Assembly: GCF_016411825.1 (NCBI RefSeq)
Contig: NZ_JAEKMH010000003.1
Location: 1 to 64,000 of the forward strand
DNA from: Devosia sediminis
GTDB lineage: Bacteria; Pseudomonadota; Alphaproteobacteria; Rhizobiales; Devosiaceae
Reading direction: 5' to 3'
Length of the DNA stretch: 64,000 bases
Shown here: piece after piece, positions 4,262-61,388 of the stretch
How positions within the stretch are numbered: position 1 is the stretch's first letter
How the letters are laid out: the number at the start of each line of letters is the position of its first letter
Made by a program: the position numbers and the translations under genes
The notes under the pieces: generated by a model
What the model was told of the DNA's origin: nothing
Seen by the model: the letters and a program-made list of their open reading frames with translations, nothing else
The model's database searches: none

Positions 4262-4370
4262 CACCCCACCCTAATTCCCTCCCCATCAAGGGGAGGGAGG
4301 CGCTGGGCTGAGGCATGGGTGTTCATCGTCGCCCTCCCCCTTGTGGGGAGGGACCAAGGGTGGGGTGCAA
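4262..4370. repeat. Intergenic palindromic repeats, family A'
   Basis: Two hairpin units occur here. The first reads CACCCTAATTCCCTCCCC, then ATCA, then GGGGAGGGAGG. The second reads CCCTCCCCCTTGTGGGGAGGG followed by CCAAGGGTGGGG. The same module recurs at 11641-11775, 43859-44062 and 47746-47884. It fills most of the gap between nfu and the methyltransferase. Confidence 0.75.
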
Positions 4371-4432
4371 TGCCCAGAGTTGCCCCGATCCCCCAAACCC
4401 GCTACTTCCGCCCCAGCAAGCCCCGGACCAAC

Positions 4433-5626
4433 ATGACCGTCACCGCCACCATCGAAGCGCTTGGCCACAAGGGCGAAGGCGTCGTCACCATCGACGGCAG
4501 CAAGGTCTTCGTACCCTTCGCCCTGCCCGGTGAAGTGGTGGACATCGACGTCGCGGGTGACCGGGGAACACTGCGATCCCTGACGACGGCGTCGCCCAGC
4601 CGCATAGATGCCTTCTGCCCGCATTTCGGCACCTGTGGTGGCTGCCAGCTTCAGCACATGGATGCCGAGAGCTACGCCGCCTTCAAGATCGGCCTCGTCG
4701 AAACCCCGCTTCGCCATGCCGGCATCGACGCAAGGGTTGAAAAGTTCATCACTGCCCATGGCGCCGGGCGGCGGCGTGCCACGCTCCATGCGCGCAGAGA
4801 CGCTGCCGGCTATATGCGGTTGCGGAGCCATGATCTCCTCGATCTTGACGCCTGTCCGATCCTCGTGCCCGAGCTCAAGCGCGCCCCCGCCATCGCCCGG
4901 GCGCTGGGCGCCGCCATCGGCGACTGCGACGTGAGTTTTACCGCCACAAATGCAGGGATCGATGTGGCCATCCGCAATGCCCCCAAGGGCGTGCGCGCCG
5001 AAAAGCTGGTGCCGCTGGCCAATGCCCTTGGCCTCGCGCGGCTGGCGCTGGACCGGGAGATGATCCTGCTGCGCCAGCAACCCAGCGTCACCATGGGGCG
5101 ATCGGACGTGGATCTGCCGATCGGCAGCTTCCTCCAGGCCACGGCGGAGGCCGAAGCGGTGCTGGCCGACTATGTGCTCGAGGCCGTGGGCAAATCCAAA
5201 TCCGTTGCCGACCTCTTTTGCGGCATCGGCCCCTTTGCCCTCCGCCTGGCGCAGGTGGCGCCGGTCTATGCCGCCGACAGCGACCGAGCCGGCATTGCCG
5301 CGCTAGAAAAAGCCGTGCGCCACACCAAGGGGCTGAAGGCCGTGACGGCCAAGGCGCGGGACCTGTTCCGCGATCCGCTCACCCGGTTCGAACTCGCTTT
5401 CGAAACCGTGGTGCTCGACCCGCCCCGGGCGGGCGCCCAGGCGCAGGTCAAGGAGATCGCGCTCTCCAAGGTCAAGCATGTGGTCATGGTCGCCTGCGAC
5501 CCGAAAACCTTTGCCCGCGACGCTGAACACCTCGTTCAGGCCGGGTTCAGGTTGAGCGGGCTAATAGCGGTGGATCAGTTCGCTTACTCAACCCATGTCG
5601 AGTTGGCAGCAACGTTCCGGCGCTGA
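4433..5626 (+). CDS. 23S rRNA (uracil-C5)-methyltransferase, RlmD/RumA-like
   Basis: A 397-residue class I SAM-dependent RNA methyltransferase of the TrmA/RlmD family, which methylates C5 of a uridine. It opens with a small TRAM domain (1-55), then has the [4Fe-4S] ligand set Cys62, Cys68, Cys71 and Cys141. It has the SAM-binding motif ADLFCGIGPFALRLA, the VVLDPPRAGA motif, and the catalytic nucleophile Cys355 in VMVACDPKTFARD. The ATG at 4433 is chosen because it starts the TRAM domain; the upstream open frame runs through repeats. Which uridine it modifies cannot be told from sequence alone. Confidence 0.9.
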   Translation: MTVTATIEALGHKGEGVVTIDGSKVFVPFALPGEVVDIDVAGDRGTLRSLTTASPSRIDAFCPHFGTCGGCQLQHMDAESYAAFKIGLVETPLRHAGIDARVEKFITAHGAGRRRATLHARRDAAGYMRLRSHDLLDLDACPILVPELKRAPAIARALGAAIGDCDVSFTATNAGIDVAIRNAPKGVRAEKLVPLANALGLARLALDREMILLRQQPSVTMGRSDVDLPIGSFLQATAEAEAVLADYVLEAVGKSKSVADLFCGIGPFALRLAQVAPVYAADSDRAGIAALEKAVRHTKGLKAVTAKARDLFRDPLTRFELAFETVVLDPPRAGAQAQVKEIALSKVKHVVMVACDPKTFARDAEHLVQAGFRLSGLIAVDQFAYSTHVELAATFRR

Positions 5627-5760
5627 GCCGGTCCGGGTGGAAAAGAGCAAAAATTGCTCGCAACTTTGCCGCATTTTGTGGGTTTAACGCGGCATCAAAC
5701 CAATATTGACCAGTAGTGGCCGCGGGCGGGGGGTGCGCGGTGACCAGACGGAGACTTGCC

Positions 5761-6147
5761 TTGACCAAAGTCAGATCCTTTCTTGTTGGCGCTGCTCTCT
5801 TGAGCGCCATTGCCATGCCCGCCTTTGCCCAGGAAGCCAACATCAACGGCACCTGGGTCGATGCCGAGGGCACCAGCTTCACATTCAAGCTCTGCGGCGA
5901 CGGTACCGACCTCTGTGGCGTGCTGAACGACATCCAGGGCGCCTCGCGCACCCCGGAAAACCTCGCCTATGTGAACCAGGAAGTGGTTCAGGCCGAGCAG
6001 ACCGCCCCCGGCAAGTGGGAAGGCACCATCAACTACGGTGGCTCCGCGGCCGGCGCCAAGGTAACCCTGGTGGCCGAAAACGCGATCGAGATCACCGGCT
6101 GCCAGTTGGGCATCCTTTGCCAGTCGATCACCTTCTATAAGAGCTGA
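5761..6147 (+). CDS. DUF2147 exported protein
   Basis: A secreted or periplasmic protein of 128 residues. A signal peptide (KVRSFLVGAALLSAIAMPAFA, residues 3-23) precedes the mature part beginning QEANINGTWVDAEG. The GTW opening, the central LCGVL segment and the compact beta-rich tail match DUF2147, a lipocalin-like domain of unknown function. A TTG start at 5761 is preferred because GGAG sits seven bases upstream and the signal peptide starts there; GTG codons at 5716 and 5740 are alternatives. A strong bidirectional terminator follows. No partner gene suggests a function. Confidence 0.8.
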   Translation: MTKVRSFLVGAALLSAIAMPAFAQEANINGTWVDAEGTSFTFKLCGDGTDLCGVLNDIQGASRTPENLAYVNQEVVQAEQTAPGKWEGTINYGGSAAGAKVTLVAENAIEITGCQLGILCQSITFYKS

Positions 6148-6164
6148 TCTTATCTCGACAAAAC

Positions 6165-6193
6165 AAAAGCCCCGGATCGCTCCGGGGCTTTTT
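6165..6193. terminator. Bidirectional rho-independent terminator
   Basis: The hairpin AGCCCCGGA-TCGC-TCCGGGGCT is flanked by AAA on the left and a T run on the right. It serves the DUF2147 gene on the plus strand and the converging isomerase gene on the minus strand. Confidence 0.9.
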
Positions 6194-6198
6194 CGTTA

Positions 6199-7026
6199 TC
6201 AGCAGACGGTTGCGACCCGTTCCTTGATCACCTGCAGCACCTCGTCGCCGGGGCGCTTCCACCAGTTGTCCTGCGAGAAGATCTCGACCTCCTGCGGACC
6301 GTGGAAACCGGCCTCCTCGATCATTTTGCGGATCGCCTTTAGATCGATGACGCCGTCTCCCATCATGCCGCGATCGAGCAGCATATCCTTGGTCGGGACC
6401 AGCCAGTCGCAGATATGGTGCGCAAAGATGCGCTTCATGCGCCCTGCCCTTGCAATGGCATTGGCGAGGTTCGGGTCCCACCAGATGTGATAGACGTCGA
6501 GCGCCACGCCCACCGTTTCCCCGAGCTTCTCGCAGATGTCGAGCGCCTGATCGACCGTGTTCACGCAGGCCCGGTCGGCCGCATACATGGGGTGCAGCGG
6601 CTCGATGGCGATCTTGACGCCCGAGGCCTTGGCATGGGGCAGCATGGCGGCAATGCCGTCGGTCACCTGCTGGCGGGCGCCGGGCAGATCCCTGCTCGAA
6701 CCGGGCAGACCGCCCACCACCAGCACGAGGCAATCGGCATTGAGCGCCGCGGCCTGGTCGATGGCGCGCAGATTGTCATCGATGCGCTTCTGCCGGTCGG
6801 CCGCGTCGACACCTGGAAACATCCCGCCGCGGCAGACGCCGGTCACCTGCAGCTTGTTGGCCTTGACGATGCGCGCCGCCTCGTCGAGCCCGATGGCCTC
6901 GATCTGGTCGCGCCAGGGCGAGATGGCGGTGATGCCGGCCCGGAGACACCCGTCCACGGCCTCGGCAAAACCCCATTGCGGACGCGTCGTGGCGAGGTTC
7001 AGCGAAATCACGGTATCGGCGCTCAT
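6199..7026 (-). CDS. TIM-barrel sugar phosphate isomerase/epimerase-like protein
   Basis: A 275-residue protein of the AP-endonuclease-2-like TIM barrel superfamily, which includes IolE, hydroxypyruvate isomerase and sugar epimerases. The barrel carries typical metal-site segments: EPLHPMYAADRACVNT (Glu), ALDVYHIWWDP (Asp and His) and HICDWL (His). It probably isomerises or epimerises a keto-sugar intermediate; the substrate is unknown. Its ATG overlaps the stop codon of the DUF993 gene by four bases, so it is the third gene of a translationally coupled catabolic operon with the Gfo/Idh dehydrogenase. A terminator follows immediately. Confidence 0.85.
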   Translation of the reverse strand: MSADTVISLNLATTRPQWGFAEAVDGCLRAGITAISPWRDQIEAIGLDEAARIVKANKLQVTGVCRGGMFPGVDAADRQKRIDDNLRAIDQAAALNADCLVLVVGGLPGSSRDLPGARQQVTDGIAAMLPHAKASGVKIAIEPLHPMYAADRACVNTVDQALDICEKLGETVGVALDVYHIWWDPNLANAIARAGRMKRIFAHHICDWLVPTKDMLLDRGMMGDGVIDLKAIRKMIEEAGFHGPQEVEIFSQDNWWKRPGDEVLQVIKERVATVC

Positions 7027-8192
7027 GCGGATACTCCATTGACCGCCAGCACCGCCTTCATCCGCTGCGTGGCCAGTTCCGGATCGGCCAGCACGCGCGC
7101 CTTGTCGGCCAAGCGGAACAGTTCGGCAAGGTGCTGCACGGAACGCGTCGACTGCTGCCCGCCGATCATCTGGAAATGGTCCTGCAGGCCATTGAGATAG
7201 GCCAGGAACACGACGCCGGTCTTGTAGAAGCGGGTGGGCGCCGCAAAGATATGGCGCGAGAGCGGCACGGTGGGCTCGAGAATGTCGAAGAACGCTGCTG
7301 TGTCGCCGCGCCCGAGCGCTGCGAGGCCCGCCGAGGCGGCCGGAGCGATGGCATCGAAGATGCCCAGGAGCGCATGGGAATAACCCTGGTCGTCGCCAGC
7401 AATCAGTTCGGCATAGTTGAAGTCGTCGCCGGTGTACATCTTGACGCTCGCCGGCAGGCGGCGGCGCATATTGATTTCCTTCTCAGCGGAAAGGAGGGAA
7501 ATCTTGATGCCGTCGACCTTGTCCGAATGGGCTGCGATGACGTCGAGGCAGGTATCCATGGCCGCGTCATGGTCGATATTGCCCCAATAGCCCTGCAGGG
7601 CCGGATCGAACATTTCCCCCAGCCAATGCATGATCACGGGCTGCTTCACGTTGGATAGCACATGGCCATAAACGCGGGCATAGTCATCGGGCGACTTGGC
7701 CGCGGCGGCGAGGGCGCGCGAGGCCATGAGGATGACGCGGCCACCCTGGGCCTCCACGAACTCGACCTGCTCGTCATAGGCGCGCATAATGTCGTCGATG
7801 CTGACATCCGGGCCGGGCATCAGATGATCGGTGCCGGCGCCATAGGCGATCAGGGCGTCGTCGCGGGTGCGCGCTTCGGCCTGAGAGCGGCGGATCAGCT
7901 CCTGCGCCTCGGTCCAGGTGAGGCCCATGCCGCGCTGGGCGGTGTCCATGGCTTCAGCAACGCCCAGGCCCAGGTCCCACATGCGATGGCGGAATTTGAG
8001 GGTCGTGTCCCAGTCGATGGCGGGCGTCAGCCAGGGATCGTTGCTGGCCAAGGGATCGGCCACGACATGCGCCGCCGAATAAGCGATGCGCGGAAAGTCC
8101 GCCGCCTTGAATTTCACGAAGGGGATCGGATCGCCGGTCAGCGTATAGGGGCTGATGGAGCGATCGGCATTGGGCAGGTTGATGGTCGGCAT
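7023..8192 (-). CDS. DUF993 family, dihydrodipicolinate synthase-like protein
   Basis: A 389-residue protein that I place in DUF993, a relative of the DHDPS/N-acetylneuraminate lyase TIM barrels. The segment KVDGIKISL places Lys230 where DHDPS enzymes carry the Schiff-base lysine, and the YTGDDFNYAELI segment follows. An aldolase or retro-aldol step on a sugar acid would fit, but this is inference; I know of no assigned reaction. The start is the ATG at 8192 with GGAGG five bases upstream. It sits between the dehydrogenase gene (across a repeat pair) and the isomerase gene, which it overlaps by four bases. Confidence 0.82.
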   Translation of the reverse strand: MPTINLPNADRSISPYTLTGDPIPFVKFKAADFPRIAYSAAHVVADPLASNDPWLTPAIDWDTTLKFRHRMWDLGLGVAEAMDTAQRGMGLTWTEAQELIRRSQAEARTRDDALIAYGAGTDHLMPGPDVSIDDIMRAYDEQVEFVEAQGGRVILMASRALAAAAKSPDDYARVYGHVLSNVKQPVIMHWLGEMFDPALQGYWGNIDHDAAMDTCLDVIAAHSDKVDGIKISLLSAEKEINMRRRLPASVKMYTGDDFNYAELIAGDDQGYSHALLGIFDAIAPAASAGLAALGRGDTAAFFDILEPTVPLSRHIFAAPTRFYKTGVVFLAYLNGLQDHFQMIGGQQSTRSVQHLAELFRLADKARVLADPELATQRMKAVLAVNGVSA

Positions 8193-47745: not shown

Positions 47746-47884
47746 CGGCTCCTCCCCCTTGACGGGGGAGGTTGGGTGGGGGTGCGTCACGTACACAGCG
47801 CTCGCCGATCCCCCACCCAGCTCCGCTAAGCCCCTTTGGGGCAAGCTGCGCTGCCCTCCCCGCACGGGGGAGGGTGAAGAGCTA
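47746..47884. repeat. Intergenic palindromic repeats, family A'
   Basis: CTCCCCCTTGACGGGGGAGG is followed by TTGGGTGGGGGTGC. Further on are GCCCCTTTGGGGCAAGC and CTCCCCGCACGGGGGAGGG with GTGAAGAGC. It fills the gap between folC and pheT. Confidence 0.78.
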
Positions 47885-50305
47885 CTTCCTGAGGTCGCCA
47901 CCCGTGGTCTTGGTCACCGCCGCAACCACTGCCGCCGAGACCTTGTCGATTTCCTCGTCGGTCAGCGTCCGGTCCTTGGGCTGCAGCGTCACTTCGATGG
48001 CGACGGACTTCTTGCCCTCGCCCACATGCGCGCCTTCGAACACGTCGAAAATACCAACGTCCTTGATGAGACCCTTGTCGGCGCCGCGGGCGGCCTTGAG
48101 GATGGAAGCGGCCGAAACACCACGATCCATGACAAAGGCAAAATCGCGGGATACCGGCTGGAACTGGGAGAGTTCGATGGCCGGCTTGGTGCGCGTCGCC
48201 TTCTTGCGCGGCTCGGGCAGCGCGTCGAGATCGATCTCGAAGGCCGCGACCGGCCCCTCGATATCGAGTTCGGCGGCCAGCGCCGGGTGCAGTTCGCCGA
48301 ACCAGCCCAGCGTCACTTTCGGCCCCAGGGCCACGCGGCCGCCACGGCCCGGATGGCTCCAGGCGGCGGCTTCGGGCAGGACCTGCACCTTTTCGATATC
48401 GACGCCGAGGGCATCGAGCACGGCCGCAAGGTCCGCCTTGGCGTCCCAGACGGTGACCGCCTGCGCCTTGCCCGACCAGTGGCGGCCGGCGCCATTGAGC
48501 CCCGCCGTTCCGGTGCGCACTCCGGAGGCATAGGTGTGCTGACCTTCCGGCTTGTCGGAAAGGAAGATTTGCCCCACTTCAAACAAAGCGACATCGGCAA
48601 AGCCGCGATTGGCATTGCGGCGGGCGCCGGCAATGAGGCCCGGCAGCAGCGAGGGCCGCATGTCGGTCATGTCGGAGGCAATGGCATTGGCCAATTGCCG
48701 GTCCTCGGTGCCGCCGCCGAAACGGGTGGCTTCGGCATTGGAAATGAAGCTCCAGGTCACCGCCTCGTCGAGGCCGCGCGCCGCCAGCGCCCGGCGCGCC
48801 AGGCGGCGGCGGTTCTGGATCGTCGTCAGCATCAGCGGCGCGACATGGTTGAGGCGCGGCAGCGGCTCCTTGGGCACATTGTCGACGCCGACCATGCGCA
48901 TGACTTCTTCGACGAGGTCCGCCTTCTGCGTCACGTCAGGACGCCAGCTTGGCACTTTGACGGACCGCGTGGGGCCAGACCCCTCGACGGCAAAGCCGAG
49001 GTGACCGAGAATGGCGTCGATCTCGCTCGGCTCGACCGAAAGACCCGTGAGGCGCTTGACCTCGGACAGCGGGAATTCCACGACCGTGTTCGGGAACACG
49101 TCCTCGCCGGAAATGGCAGGCTCCATGGCCTCGCCGCCACACAGCTCCAGCACGAGGCGCGTCGCCAGTTCCATGCCGGGTTCCGTAAGAGCCGGGTCGA
49201 CATTGCGTTCGAGCCGGTAGCGGGCATCCGAGACAATGCCGGTCTTGCGACCGGTCTGGGCGATCAGGTCGGGGTCCCAGCTCGCGCATTCCATGAACAC
49301 ATTGGTGGTTTCGTCGGTCACCCCCGAGCGGATGCCGCCCATGATACCGCCGAGGCAAAGCGGCCCCTTGTCGTCGGCAATGACGGTCATGCTCTGGTCG
49401 AGCGTATAGATTTTGTTGTCGAGCGCATCGAAGGCTTCGCCGCGCGCATTGCGCAGCACCATTTCGCCCTCGACCTTGTCGGCGTCATAGGCATGCAGCG
49501 GCCGGCCCCAGCCGAGCGAAACGAGGTTGGTGATATCGACCACGGTGTTGATGGGCCGCAGGCCCACGGCGCGCAGGCGCGCCTGCAGCCAGTCGGGCGA
49601 GGGGCCATTCTTGATGCCCTTCAGGTAGCGCCCGGCGAACTTGCGGATGGCCTTGGGTTCATCCGCGGAAAACTGATGCGGCAGCGGCGCGATCGGGCTC
49701 TTGCCGGTCGAGGCGACGGGCGAAAAGTCGGTCTTTTTCAGCGTGCCGAGGCCGAAGGCGGCTAGATCGCGCGCCACGCCATAGACGCCGGTGGCGTCGC
49801 CGCGATTGGGGGTAATGGAAATGTCGAAGACGACGCCATTGATGCCGGCATAGTCGACATACTTTTCACCCACCGGCGCATCTCCCGGCAGCTCGATGAT
49901 GCCGTCATGGTCTTCGCTGAGTTCGAGTTCGGCGGCCGAGCACAGCATGCCGTTGGACGGCGTGCCGCGAATGACCACGCCGGCCTTTAGTTCAAAATCC
50001 TTGCCCGGAATATAGGTGCCGGGAAAGGCGAAGACCGACTTCAAACCCGTGCGGCAATTGGGGGCGCCGCAGACCACGTCGATCATCTCGCCGGTGCCGG
50101 CATCGACCTTGCAGACATTGAGGTGGTCGGAATTGGGATGCGGCTCGGCCGAAACCACATGGGCGACGACGAATTTCTCCAGGCGCGCGCCCTGCGATTC
50201 GACGCCTTCCACCTCGAGGCCAATCATGGTCAGCGCCTTGCTGATTTCCTCGGCCGAGGCAGTGGTCTCGAGATGTTCCTTGAGCCAATCAAGCGTGAAT
50301 TTCAT
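47882..50305 (-). CDS. pheT: Phenylalanine--tRNA ligase beta subunit
   Basis: An 807-residue beta chain of the alpha2-beta2 synthetase. The N-terminal tRNA-binding OB domain (residues 40-150; SDHLNVCKVDAG, VVCGAPNCRTG) is followed by the B3/B4 editing domain, where DITNLVSLGWGRPLHAYDADKV is the signature. The B5 domain and a catalytic-like core come next, and a C-terminal FDX-ACB anticodon domain (QFQPVSRDFAFVMDRGV to the end). Length is normal. It begins eleven bases after the ASCH-exonuclease gene, so the two are translated from one message. Confidence 0.96.
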   Translation of the reverse strand: MKFTLDWLKEHLETTASAEEISKALTMIGLEVEGVESQGARLEKFVVAHVVSAEPHPNSDHLNVCKVDAGTGEMIDVVCGAPNCRTGLKSVFAFPGTYIPGKDFELKAGVVIRGTPSNGMLCSAAELELSEDHDGIIELPGDAPVGEKYVDYAGINGVVFDISITPNRGDATGVYGVARDLAAFGLGTLKKTDFSPVASTGKSPIAPLPHQFSADEPKAIRKFAGRYLKGIKNGPSPDWLQARLRAVGLRPINTVVDITNLVSLGWGRPLHAYDADKVEGEMVLRNARGEAFDALDNKIYTLDQSMTVIADDKGPLCLGGIMGGIRSGVTDETTNVFMECASWDPDLIAQTGRKTGIVSDARYRLERNVDPALTEPGMELATRLVLELCGGEAMEPAISGEDVFPNTVVEFPLSEVKRLTGLSVEPSEIDAILGHLGFAVEGSGPTRSVKVPSWRPDVTQKADLVEEVMRMVGVDNVPKEPLPRLNHVAPLMLTTIQNRRRLARRALAARGLDEAVTWSFISNAEATRFGGGTEDRQLANAIASDMTDMRPSLLPGLIAGARRNANRGFADVALFEVGQIFLSDKPEGQHTYASGVRTGTAGLNGAGRHWSGKAQAVTVWDAKADLAAVLDALGVDIEKVQVLPEAAAWSHPGRGGRVALGPKVTLGWFGELHPALAAELDIEGPVAAFEIDLDALPEPRKKATRTKPAIELSQFQPVSRDFAFVMDRGVSAASILKAARGADKGLIKDVGIFDVFEGAHVGEGKKSVAIEVTLQPKDRTLTDEEIDKVSAAVVAAVTKTTGGDLRK

Positions 50306-50316
50306 GTCTTTAGCCT

Positions 50317-51357
50317 TTAGCGGAAGTCGCTTTTGCTACCAATGATGGGCGGCAGCTGAGAAGAAAGTTGCAAAAGTTCGACAAGCACATTGGCAAAGCC
50401 GCGGGCGTCGTCGATGGCGCGGTGGGTGTGGGGAATATGGCCATAGAATTCGGCCGGCAGCTTGCTCATGCCCCAATCCATATAGGGCGCACCGCGCAGC
50501 GTACCCGCCATGGTATAAAGGCAGATGCCGCCGCCACGAAAGATCTGGCGACCCTTGAAGGGGCCGGATAGGGCGCGCGTGCCGGCATAGTCGTCGAGAT
50601 AATGGTCCATCCAGAGACCATCGAAAATCATCGGCGCTGCCACGAAAACCTTTGGCCCGGCCAGGCTTTCCACCCAGTCCGCAAAGCGCGGCATGACCAC
50701 GGCCGGGTCTTCCGCGCCGGTCGTCGCCGCCGCCCAGGCCTCGGGCTGGGTCGCCCACCAGGCCATCGTGGTTTCGTTCTGCTTGCGATCGGCGCGCGGC
50801 GTCAGCACCGCCTCGAATTCGCCATGGCGGGTACCGTCGGCTTCCACGGCGACCGAGGCAAAGCTCAGCATGGAATTGTGCAGCGGCGTCGGACCATCGC
50901 TCTCGATGTCGGTGACGATGAAGATCGGCCGCGCTACCTGGGCATAAAGCGCGCGCCCGGCCGGCAGCACGGTGACCAGACGGAATGTCTCGCAGACGAT
51001 TTCCATCTCCGGCGCAAAACCGCCATTGCGCGCGAAATAGGCCTCATGCCCCTCGCGCCAGGTGGCGTAGTCGCCCTCGCCTTCGCGATCGGTGAAATCC
51101 GGTTCGATCTCGTCGAAGCGCCTGGTTTCGATGGTCAGCGTTTCGATCACGCAGGCCTCTTCACCCGCACCGTTGAGCACGATATCGCGCCGCCCCACCT
51201 CGGGCATCGGCTCGCTGCCATGGCCATAGTCGCGCAGCGCCCCACAGGTCGCCGTCTTCTTGCCCGCCAGCACCAGCGCGAGCAGGCGGTCGGCCAGCTC
51301 CGGGGAATCCCCGAAGCTGAACCTGATCTGCTCAGTACTGGCCGTGCTGGACGACAC
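50317..51357 (-). CDS. ASCH domain fused to DEDDh 3'-5' exonuclease domain
   Basis: A 346-residue two-domain protein between pheS and pheT. Residues 10-130 form an ASCH domain: FSFGDSPELADRLLALVLAGKKTATC, VGRRDIVLNGAGEEACVIET, WREGHEAYF and EMEIVCETFRLV. Lys34 and Thr37 (KxxT) match the catalytic pair of E. coli YqfB, an N4-acetylcytidine amidohydrolase. Residues 143-332 are an exonuclease fold with the full DEDDh set: Asp150 and Glu152 (TDIESDG), Asp246 (APMIFDG), His312 and Asp317 (HRAIDD). Start is a GTG with GAGG nine bases upstream; gaps to pheS and pheT are 27 and 11 bases. I do not know this domain pairing as a named family. A nuclease acting on modified RNA is a fair guess, not shown. 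Confidence 0.82.
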   Translation of the reverse strand: MSSSTASTEQIRFSFGDSPELADRLLALVLAGKKTATCGALRDYGHGSEPMPEVGRRDIVLNGAGEEACVIETLTIETRRFDEIEPDFTDREGEGDYATWREGHEAYFARNGGFAPEMEIVCETFRLVTVLPAGRALYAQVARPIFIVTDIESDGPTPLHNSMLSFASVAVEADGTRHGEFEAVLTPRADRKQNETTMAWWATQPEAWAAATTGAEDPAVVMPRFADWVESLAGPKVFVAAPMIFDGLWMDHYLDDYAGTRALSGPFKGRQIFRGGGICLYTMAGTLRGAPYMDWGMSKLPAEFYGHIPHTHRAIDDARGFANVLVELLQLSSQLPPIIGSKSDFR

Positions 51358-51384: not shown

Positions 51385-52515
51385 TTAGGAAGAAAGCCCG
51401 CCAAACAGCGTCGGCAGATCAAGCGGGCGGAAACCGTAATGGTCGAGCCAGCGCTGGTCGGCGTCGAAGAAGGCCCGCAGGTCCGGCATGCCGTATTTGA
51501 GCATGGCGATGCGGTCGATGCCGATGCCCCAGGCAAAGCCCTGATAGACATCGGGGTCGAGCCCGGCATTGCGGATGACGTTCGGATGCACCATGCCGCA
51601 GCCCAGGATTTCGAGCCAGTCCTTGCCCTCGCCGATCTTCACCTCCGAACCGGAGCGGTCGCATTGCACGTCCACTTCCATCGACGGCTCGGTGAAGGGG
51701 AAGAAGCTCGGGCGGAACCTGAGGGTCACGCTCGGCACTTCGAAAAAGGCCTTCAGGAACTCTTCCAGCACCCAGCGCAACTGGCCGATATGGGAGTTCT
51801 TGTCGATGACGAGGCCTTCCACCTGGTGGAACATCGGCGTGTGGGTCTGGTCCGAGTCATTGCGATAGGTGCGGCCGGGCATGACCACGCGGATCGGCGG
51901 GTCCATGGCCGGGGTGATGTAGCTCGCCGCCGGCTTTTCATTGGTCTTCTGCATGACGCGCACCTGCACCGGCGAGGTGTGGGTGCGCAAAACCTTCTTC
52001 ACCCCGTCAGGGCCGGGCTTCATGAAGAACGTATCGTGCATTTCGCGTGCCGGATGTCCCTCGGGGAAATTCAGCGCCGTGAAGTTGAAATAGTCGGTTT
52101 CGATATCGGGCCCTTCGGCAATGGAGAAACCCATATCCGAGAAGATGGCGGTGATTTCGTCGATGGTCTGGGAAATCGGATGGATACGGCCGCGCGCCGT
52201 GGGGGCGGGCTTCAGCGGCAGGGTGACGTCGACCGTTTCGGCCTTGAGGCGAGCCTCGAGCGCGGCGCCCTTCAGTGCCTCGCTGCGCGTTTCGATCAAG
52301 GCGGCGACCTCGTTCTTGAGGCCGTTGATGGCGGGGCCCGCGCTCTTGCGGTCCTCGGGCGCCATGGAGCCGAGCGTGGCGAGCAGGGCCGAAACCGAAC
52401 CCTTCTTGCCCAGGGCCGATACGCGGACCGCGTCCAGCGCTGCCTCGCTGTCCGACGCGGCGATGGCTGTCGACAATTCGCTGCGCAGGATTTCGATCTG
52501 TGTTTGCAAGGACAT
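51385..52515 (-). CDS. pheS: Phenylalanine--tRNA ligase alpha subunit
   Basis: A 376-residue class II synthetase catalytic subunit. The N-terminal coiled coil (residues 1-95) binds tRNA. Motif 2 is [15 protein letters not shown] with the downstream [10 protein letters not shown], and motif 3 is [22 protein letters not shown]. The start at 52515 gives the family N-terminus [14 protein letters not shown]; the longer frame reads back through a terminator. A stem-loop with T run separates it from rplT upstream, so pheS may have its own promoter or be partly attenuated. Confidence 0.96.
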
Positions 52516-52554
52516 CGTTATTCTCAGCTCGGACAGTGTGGCGCGGTTAGAGCA

Positions 52555-52597
52555 AACAAAAACGCCCTGCGCCAGCCCTCTCGGGCGGCGCAAGGCG
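52555..52597 (-). terminator. Terminator or attenuator between rplT and pheS
   Basis: On the minus strand the stem CGCCTTGCGCC / GGCGCAGGGCG encloses a second small hairpin (GCCCGAGAGGGC) and is followed by TTTTTGTTT. It is a good rho-independent terminator after rplT. No Phe-rich leader peptide is seen, so classical attenuation is not supported. Confidence 0.85.
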
Positions 52598-60773: not shown

Positions 60774-61388
60774 TCAGCTATGGGCGAAAATGTCGGTTTC
60801 TTCCCAGCCCATCAGGTCAAGTGCGCAGCGCGTCTTGAGGAAATCGAAGCACGACCGGGCCAGTTCGGTGCGGCCTTCGCGCGCCAGCATCCGGTCGAGA
60901 TGGCGCTTGAGGTCATGGAGGTAGAGCACGTCGGACGCGGCATAATCGAGCTGGGCATCGCTGAGCTTGTCGCCGCCCCAGTCCGAGCTCTGCTGCTGCT
61001 TGGAAAGATCGACATTGAGCAGTTCGCGCACCAGGTCCTTGAGGCCATGGCGATCGGTATAGGTGCGCACCAGCTTGGAGGCGATCTTGGTGCAGTAGAC
61101 CGGGCCGGTGACGACGCCGAAGCGGTTCTGCAGCACCGCCACGTCGAAGCGCGCATAGTGGAAGATCTTGGTAACGCCAGGATCGGAGAGGAGCTTGACC
61201 AGGTTCGGCGCTTCGGTGGCGTCCTGCGGGATCTGCACCACGTCGGCGCTGCCGTCGCCGGGCGAGAGCTGCACGACACAGAGCCGGTCGCGATGGGGAT
61301 GAAGCCCCATGGTCTCGGTATCGATCGCCACTTCGCGGCCATAGTTGGAAAGGTTGGGCAAGTCTCCGCGATGCACTCGGATGGCCAT
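60774..61388 (-). CDS. rnd: Ribonuclease D (short form)
   Basis: A 204-residue 3'-5' exonuclease of the DEDDy type. The motifs are AIDTETMGLHPHRDRL (Asp, Glu), KIFHYARFDVAVLQ (Asp) and YAASDVLYLHDL (Tyr, Asp). It lacks the HRDC domains of E. coli RNase D, as do many alphaproteobacterial short forms, which trim tRNA or structured RNA. It lies 14 bases before lptC and may be the first gene of that operon. Confidence 0.9.
   Translation of the reverse strand: MAIRVHRGDLPNLSNYGREVAIDTETMGLHPHRDRLCVVQLSPGDGSADVVQIPQDATEAPNLVKLLSDPGVTKIFHYARFDVAVLQNRFGVVTGPVYCTKIASKLVRTYTDRHGLKDLVRELLNVDLSKQQQSSDWGGDKLSDAQLDYAASDVLYLHDLKRHLDRMLAREGRTELARSCFDFLKTRCALDLMGWEETDIFAHS

Follow-up and report, generated by a model that had tools for sequence, protein, structure and literature searches.

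An unbroken reading frame between pheS and pheT of Devosia sediminis joins an N-terminal ASCH domain to a C-terminal DEDDh-type exonuclease in the 64-kb stretch of DNA analysed here (hereafter the window). This fusion is a variant made of known domains that is not described in the literature covered: titles and abstract openings of the open-licence literature returned neither an ASCH–exonuclease fusion nor an ASCH gene within pheST, in line with an earlier sequence-only reading of the window that knew of no such architecture, while both families were already known. We tentatively read the product as an accessory exonuclease that would be made together with phenylalanyl-tRNA synthetase (PheRS) and guided by the ASCH domain as a nucleic-acid reader, and give this reading slightly less than even odds (probability roughly 0.45).

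A fused gene within the pheST operon

The fusion ORF is a single frame with no internal stop codons, separated from pheS by 27 bp and from pheT by 11 bp, with all three genes on the minus strand (Table 1). The position and the gaps claimed in the sequence-only reading, which gave no strand, hold, and the domain border contains no frameshift. Its description of two domains in one frame also holds, and Pfam matches and aligned rows bear out both domains and the conservation of their putative active-site or pocket residues; Lys34, Thr37, Asp150, Glu152, Asp246, His312 and Asp317 are all at the positions it gave. The protein shares 78–88% identity with 17 relatives and, given one frame, these relatives and low dN/dS in both domains, the ORF is neither a chance frame nor a frameshift product. 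The flanking pheS and pheT are themselves ordinary by their TIGR00468 and TIGR00472 profiles.

Table 1 Features of the pheS–fusion–pheT locus, in window coordinates.
Feature	Position	Strand	Description and evidence
pheS, upstream operon gene	51385..52593	minus	TIGR00468, E 1e-96
ASCH–DEDDh exonuclease fusion gene	50317..51357	minus	346 aa, GTG start; homologues exist
ASCH domain, DUF984/EF3133 type, residues ~12–131	50965..51324	minus	PF04266; 1t62/3s9x matches
Interdomain linker, short, residues 132–141	50935..50964	minus	predicted helix, AlphaFold2 model
DEDDh 3′–5′ exonuclease domain, residues ~142–336	50350..50934	minus	PF16473; 7t2s profile and fold
pheT, downstream operon gene	47882..50305	minus	TIGR00472, E 7.7e-215

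Pattern scans of the locus were uninformative, with no promoter-like sites against 0.3 expected and one terminator-like site (51418–51397, same strand, spanning the end of pheS) against 1.1 expected. The three genes would presumably be co-transcribed, and the fusion protein is probably co-made with PheRS; it is plausible from gene spacing that its dose tracks that of the synthetase. The fusion protein is the only match to PF04266 in the whole genome, which elsewhere encodes one RNase_T-family protein, whose frame also gives a marginal PF01612 match, and three clear PF01612 exonucleases. A further DEDD exonuclease in the window (60774–61388, minus strand; 204 aa) is of the RNase D/PF01612 type and is perhaps the oligoribonuclease NrnC.

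Domain assignment and conserved residues

The N-terminal part matches the Pfam ASCH family as claimed (PF04266, residues 23–128, E 4e-18, 66.4 bits against a curated cut-off of 21.2), and it belongs to the DUF984/EF3133 type by sequence, profile and fold. A phmmer search retrieved 1t62 (E 2.6e-17) and 3s9x (E 2.5e-13), a profile search of the PDB gave 3s9x (E 4.7e-39) and 1t62 (E 7.4e-37), and the same two structures were matched in fold comparison (Z 17.3 over 129 residues for 3s9x, Z 16.4 for 1t62). Conservation was read from 87 ASCH and 83 exonuclease rows, sets in each of which the window's protein is entered twice and from which pieces shorter than 95 or 150 residues were dropped, including the broken copies L018 and L114. 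The conserved ASCH residues are K34, T37, C38, E92, E94, W100 and H104: Lys34 is kept in 86 of the 87 rows and Cys38 in 85, position 37 holds Thr in 78 rows or Ser in 8, and Glu92, Trp100 and His104 are each present in every row. Position 39 is Gly in 64 rows, Asp in 9, Ser in 6 and Arg in none. DUF984-type ASCH proteins have solved structures, but no function for them turned up in the open-licence literature, and we know of no assayed member.

The C-terminal domain matches the Rv2179c-like exoribonuclease family (PF16473) at residues 147–255 (E 1.4e-5), scoring 25.3 bits in the whole protein and 27.6 bits as the exonuclease part alone against a cut-off of 27. The putative catalytic residues D150, E152, D246, H312 and D317, together with H310, are invariant in 83/83 exonuclease rows. 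The best solved match in a profile search with this part was 7t2s (E 8.4e-23), named by fold searches as Cap18 of E. coli upec-117. A first fold model built from 18 sequences was poor (pLDDT 63); a second (AlphaFold2; 49 sequences including viral relatives, pLDDT 87.6, pTM 0.77) supports both predicted domain folds. Comparison of the predicted structure, which the sequence-only reading had proposed, gave a DEDDh fold for the exonuclease, with Cap18 closest (7t2s, Z 19.1, rmsd 2.6, 169 aligned residues, 24% identity) and RNase T next (3v9x, Z 18.0), followed by Orn and the Rv2179c type (4hec, which we take to be Rv2179c, Z 14.9); RNase AS (4oke) was among the matches of the first, weaker model. 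Exonuclease chemistry is well supported by these residues and this fold, and the domain would be expected to be enzymatically active, with RNA rather than DNA as its likely substrate. For RNase T and Orn, the defining trait would be substrate specificity (tRNA 3′ ends and nanoRNA). The exonuclease also matches the PADLOC 'Effector, Exonuclease' profile (E 4.1e-10). Distant relatives of it are encoded in 200 viral stretches of IMG/VR and, among the 80 kept (L190–L269), many lie on contigs of 100–540 kb, as expected of jumbo phages.

The KxxT pair, Lys34 and Thr37, had been likened to that of the N4-acetylcytidine (ac4C) amidohydrolase YqfB, for which we used catalytic Lys21, Thr24 and Glu74 and the oxyanion-hole residue Arg26 as criteria. 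In E. coli YqfB, the K21A, T24A and R26A mutants are reported as inactive (PMC6972931). A single profile alignment (hhalign, E 0.0049) pairs K21, T24 and E74 with K34, T37 and E92 at 7% probability, so this pairing is tentative, above all for Glu; that of Lys and Thr also fits the shared ASCH motif. The same low-probability alignment places R26 at G39, a position at which none of the 87 rows carries Arg. The fold of the first, weaker model matched YqfB (9kyf) with Z 12.2, rmsd 2.2 and 101 aligned residues, and no YqfB chain was matched in the profile search of the PDB with the ASCH part at E up to 1. Of the two families that we take to be the known ac4C writers, TmcA (PF13718) exceeded its cut-off in 0 of the 61 genomes of Devosiaceae searched, where its only match was a weaker one in G042 (E 5.2e-4), and TmcAL (PF05636) had no match in the same 61; of 14 control genomes, the profiles were found in 3 and 4, respectively, with E. 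coli and B. subtilis among these. The Lys/Thr/Glu triad thus seems kept and the oxyanion Arg absent. Of the earlier comparison, the presence and conservation of Lys34 and Thr37 stand and the link to ac4C is weakened, since an ac4C role for the fusion is unlikely with Arg26 missing and neither writer family over cut-off.

Distribution and history

Matches were found in 71 of 101 Devosiaceae genomes. The ASCH–exonuclease order occurs in 23 genomes of genus g1, including the source genome (L019–L041), and at 37 loci once named-record loci are added (at least six being one record seen twice); pheS and pheT flank it at all 37, so the operon position noted for the window is fixed across these fusion loci. 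One further locus, L014, may hold a fusion that is truncated where its contig stops, and is left out of this count. Other g1 genomes carry the exonuclease only (7 intact cases, L042–L048, and a broken copy in G095), ASCH only (G099) or neither, and four have a bare pheS–pheT gap of 12 bp (L156–L159). In genus g6 the domain order is reversed, with exonuclease–ASCH as one ORF in the pheS–pheT gap of 6/6 matching genomes (genus counts refer to matching or listed genomes). The 338-aa ORF at L079 in this genus shares 4 bases with the end of pheS; both Pfam families match it, the exonuclease family below its cut-off. Across 109 rows, the gap holds separate ASCH and exonuclease genes in 11, the exonuclease only in 27 (two broken copies) and ASCH only in 17. 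Empty gaps were surveyed in 20 genomes (16 of the 30 no-match genomes and 4 others), 14 of which gave rows with neither domain. Neither domain needs the other, since each also stands alone in the gap.

Other genes were seen at the same place. The gap holds a BrnT toxin/BrnA antitoxin pair in L010 (3395–3977) and a BrnA-like protein with DUF2442 in L082 (3828–4448), and with such cargo it seems to be a general insertion site for small genes in Devosiaceae. By Pfam, a YetF/DUF421-type gene lies between pheS and pheT in L081 (5076–5612, minus strand), with a similar gene in L169 by eye, and a DUF421-looking ORF adjoins an exonuclease relative in L329, also by eye. The gap of L078 (G004, 4281–7048) contains ASCH and two different exonuclease genes, with 66% and 45% identity to that of the window. 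L154 (3501–5114, minus strand) is from G028, a Devosia-genus genome that lacks the fusion; there, a relative of the exonuclease at 30% directly adjoins a gene with a PF01909 nucleotidyltransferase domain, a pair that could be defence-related.

In a sample of 297 genomes from the order, ASCH matches occurred in 33 genomes outside Devosiaceae. Of the 31 of these loci examined, 17 have ASCH beside pheST (11 between pheS and pheT, 6 directly after pheT), and the other 14 have it in neither position within the stretch examined. In six genomes of one other family (L124–L127, L130 and L131), the frames of PheS and PheT abut or share a few bases, with ASCH encoded about 100 bp beyond pheT. Three more genomes from outside the order have ASCH adjoining pheS, between pheS and pheT in L304 and L307, with L300 stopping at a contig end. 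The exonuclease was matched in 15 genomes of the order sample outside the family, and 2 of 8 loci examined have it between pheS and pheT (L115 and L117). From these counts, the association of ASCH with pheST looks like the wider link, and the exonuclease seems to be a second tenant. No fusion outside Devosiaceae appeared in the match tables of 385 class and 398 phylum genomes (36 and 59 with a match), from which 53 loci were checked individually. The only match across both domains, in G547, has an internal stop and proved on a second look to be ASCH alone. Among plasmids, no single region in any of 191 matching records spans 80% of the query (20 rows listed), and the fusion was found in 0/14 phages. 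Besides our own, the class sample holds 14 exonuclease relatives; none has pheS, pheT or ASCH in the roughly 1.5 kb around it, and their neighbours at ten loci shared no common theme by eye.

A PheT tree of the 109 rows was inferred by a quick method; 37 of its 106 inner branches are drawn open, and it is not a species tree. The reverse fusion forms one clade in it (support 100), and rows with the forward fusion, with either domain alone or with neither are mixed among one another. This tree implies 39 architecture changes; the forward fusion accounts for 15 of them, and supported branches force 7 of these 15. In the exonuclease tree, where long branches meet, the reverse-fused g6 domains make up a separate clade (100/99), and all other Devosiaceae exonucleases fall outside it except for the divergent second copy in L078. 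The ASCH tree places the forward-fused domains in a single clade (100/99) that also takes in one ASCH-only row, and a single origin of the reverse-fused ASCH has support of 38/0; both domain trees contain 9 forward-fused rows. As the domains fall into separate clades, the simple reading is two fusions in opposite orders, after which one or both halves were often lost.

The dN/dS values of ASCH, exonuclease and PheT are alike at about 0.1–0.2 (window against relatives, 8 comparisons, with synonymous sites half saturated), and retained fusion copies are therefore under constraint in both domains. Among 90 Devosiaceae rows, 45 have both domains, 25 the exonuclease only, 6 ASCH only and 14 none, which gives p 0.0098 in an uncorrected Fisher test. 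This co-occurrence was not significant once relatedness was removed: independent pairs on the PheT tree gave 2.3 of the same sense, 1.0 opposite and 11.7 without difference (median p 1). The idea that the two domains are coupled gained from the reverse-order fusion in a sister genus and found no support in the relatedness-corrected co-occurrence.

Proposed role and relation to known systems

We propose that the fusion is a dispensable accessory nuclease, under purifying selection where it is kept. Its C-terminal domain would act as a two-metal DEDDh 3′–5′ exonuclease of the Cap18/RNase T/Rv2179c type, trimming nucleotides off the 3′ end of single-stranded RNA and possibly of ssDNA too. The N-terminal DUF984-type ASCH domain, a predicted PUA-like barrel whose pocket carries a conserved K-x-A-T-C, would bind a nucleotide or modified base and so pick which ends reach the exonuclease; such a reader role is suggested by the PUA-like fold, the nucleic-acid binding of ZmASCH and the two fusions. 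The opposite-order fusions in Devosia and a related genus hint that the two parts work together, and the fusion may have some tie to tRNA-Phe or PheRS function, such as the tRNA-Phe quality control put forward in the sequence-only reading. Nuclease fusions in both orders are a strong genetic lead on the partners of DUF984-type ASCH, and the recurrent place beside pheST is a lead on where it acts. An exonuclease of the Cap18 type, so far discussed in phage defence, is here found in a housekeeping operon.

Four other accounts were considered beside this one. The most substantial holds that there is no coupling: two independent small accessory genes, each with its own job, entered a tolerant pheST gap where expression is steady, and a lost stop codon joined them. 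In its favour, the gap often holds one domain alone, the architecture changes often on the PheT tree, unrelated cargo is present, and co-occurrence is not significant after correction; position alone is also weak evidence of function, because the gap tolerates BrnT/BrnA and YetF-like genes. Two opposite-order fusions from separate domain clades and the low dN/dS of both domains inside the fusion are harder to reconcile with it, and we regard it as doubtful, if still a real contender. Synthetase-coupled RNA surveillance, in which ASCH would read a modified or damaged nucleotide and the RNA would be destroyed from its 3′ end, draws on the repeated occurrence of ASCH beside pheST in Alphaproteobacteria and its two independent fusions to a Cap18-like exonuclease, in opposite orders, in Devosiaceae; such an enzyme would work near the translation machinery, and the account seems to us unlikely.

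Two further accounts appear improbable. If ASCH deacylated modified cytidine by YqfB chemistry and the exonuclease digested the RNA, the fusion would serve acylated-RNA salvage, to which the tentative Lys/Thr/Glu alignment and the fold match to YqfB are favourable. The Gly at the position of Arg26, whose replacement in R26A abolishes YqfB activity (PMC6972931), speaks against it, as do the lack of TmcA or TmcAL matches over cut-off in 61 Devosiaceae genomes and the view that YqfB homologues, which showed no nucleic-acid binding, act on free nucleosides (PMC9599836). A defence nuclease, in which ASCH would recognise modified bases of foreign nucleic acid for destruction by the Cap18-like exonuclease, has to contend with adjoining genes that are housekeeping and with dN/dS as low as that of PheT, unlike a typical arms-race gene; its appeal lies in the defence-associated Cap18 as closest solved exonuclease, the PADLOC match, the patchy presence on the PheT tree, the viral relatives and the prediction that EVE domains of the PUA/ASCH superfamily read modified bases in defence contexts (PMC7641849).

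Each of the closest known systems shares some features with the Devosia protein and differs in others. The DUF984/EF3133 structures 1t62 and 3s9x likewise lack Arg two residues after Thr/Ser, but they were solved as stand-alone domains of 159–166 residues with no exonuclease. YqfB shares the ASCH fold and, in a low-probability alignment, Lys, Thr and tentatively Glu, but its essential Arg26 is absent from the Devosia ASCH, which is fused to a nuclease. The single-stranded RNase ZmASCH has the fold in common (Z 9.4, first, weaker model) and binds nucleic acids (PMC5615036); the ASCH superfamily signature given in that paper is GxKxxxxR, and the corresponding stretch of the Devosia fusion is G32-K33-K34-T-A-T-C-G39, that is, GxKxxxxG. 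Membership in the ZmASCH-type RNases was defined by Tyr47, Lys53 and Ser128. RNase T and Rv2179c/RNase AS share the DEDDh fold and, at scores close to its cut-off, the PF16473 profile with the Devosia exonuclease at about 12–17% identity and lack ASCH; to our knowledge, their genes lie in genomic contexts other than pheST. Cap18 (7t2s) is the solved structure nearest to the Devosia exonuclease by both profile and fold. It is encoded in a CBASS operon, where a catalytic-dead mutant left phage protection unaffected in a single assay (PMC9122588), and a review states that it degrades ssDNA or ssRNA with no cyclic oligonucleotide required (PMC10419184). Cap18 is a 187-residue chain without ASCH, whereas the Devosia exonuclease is fused to ASCH and flanked by pheS and pheT.
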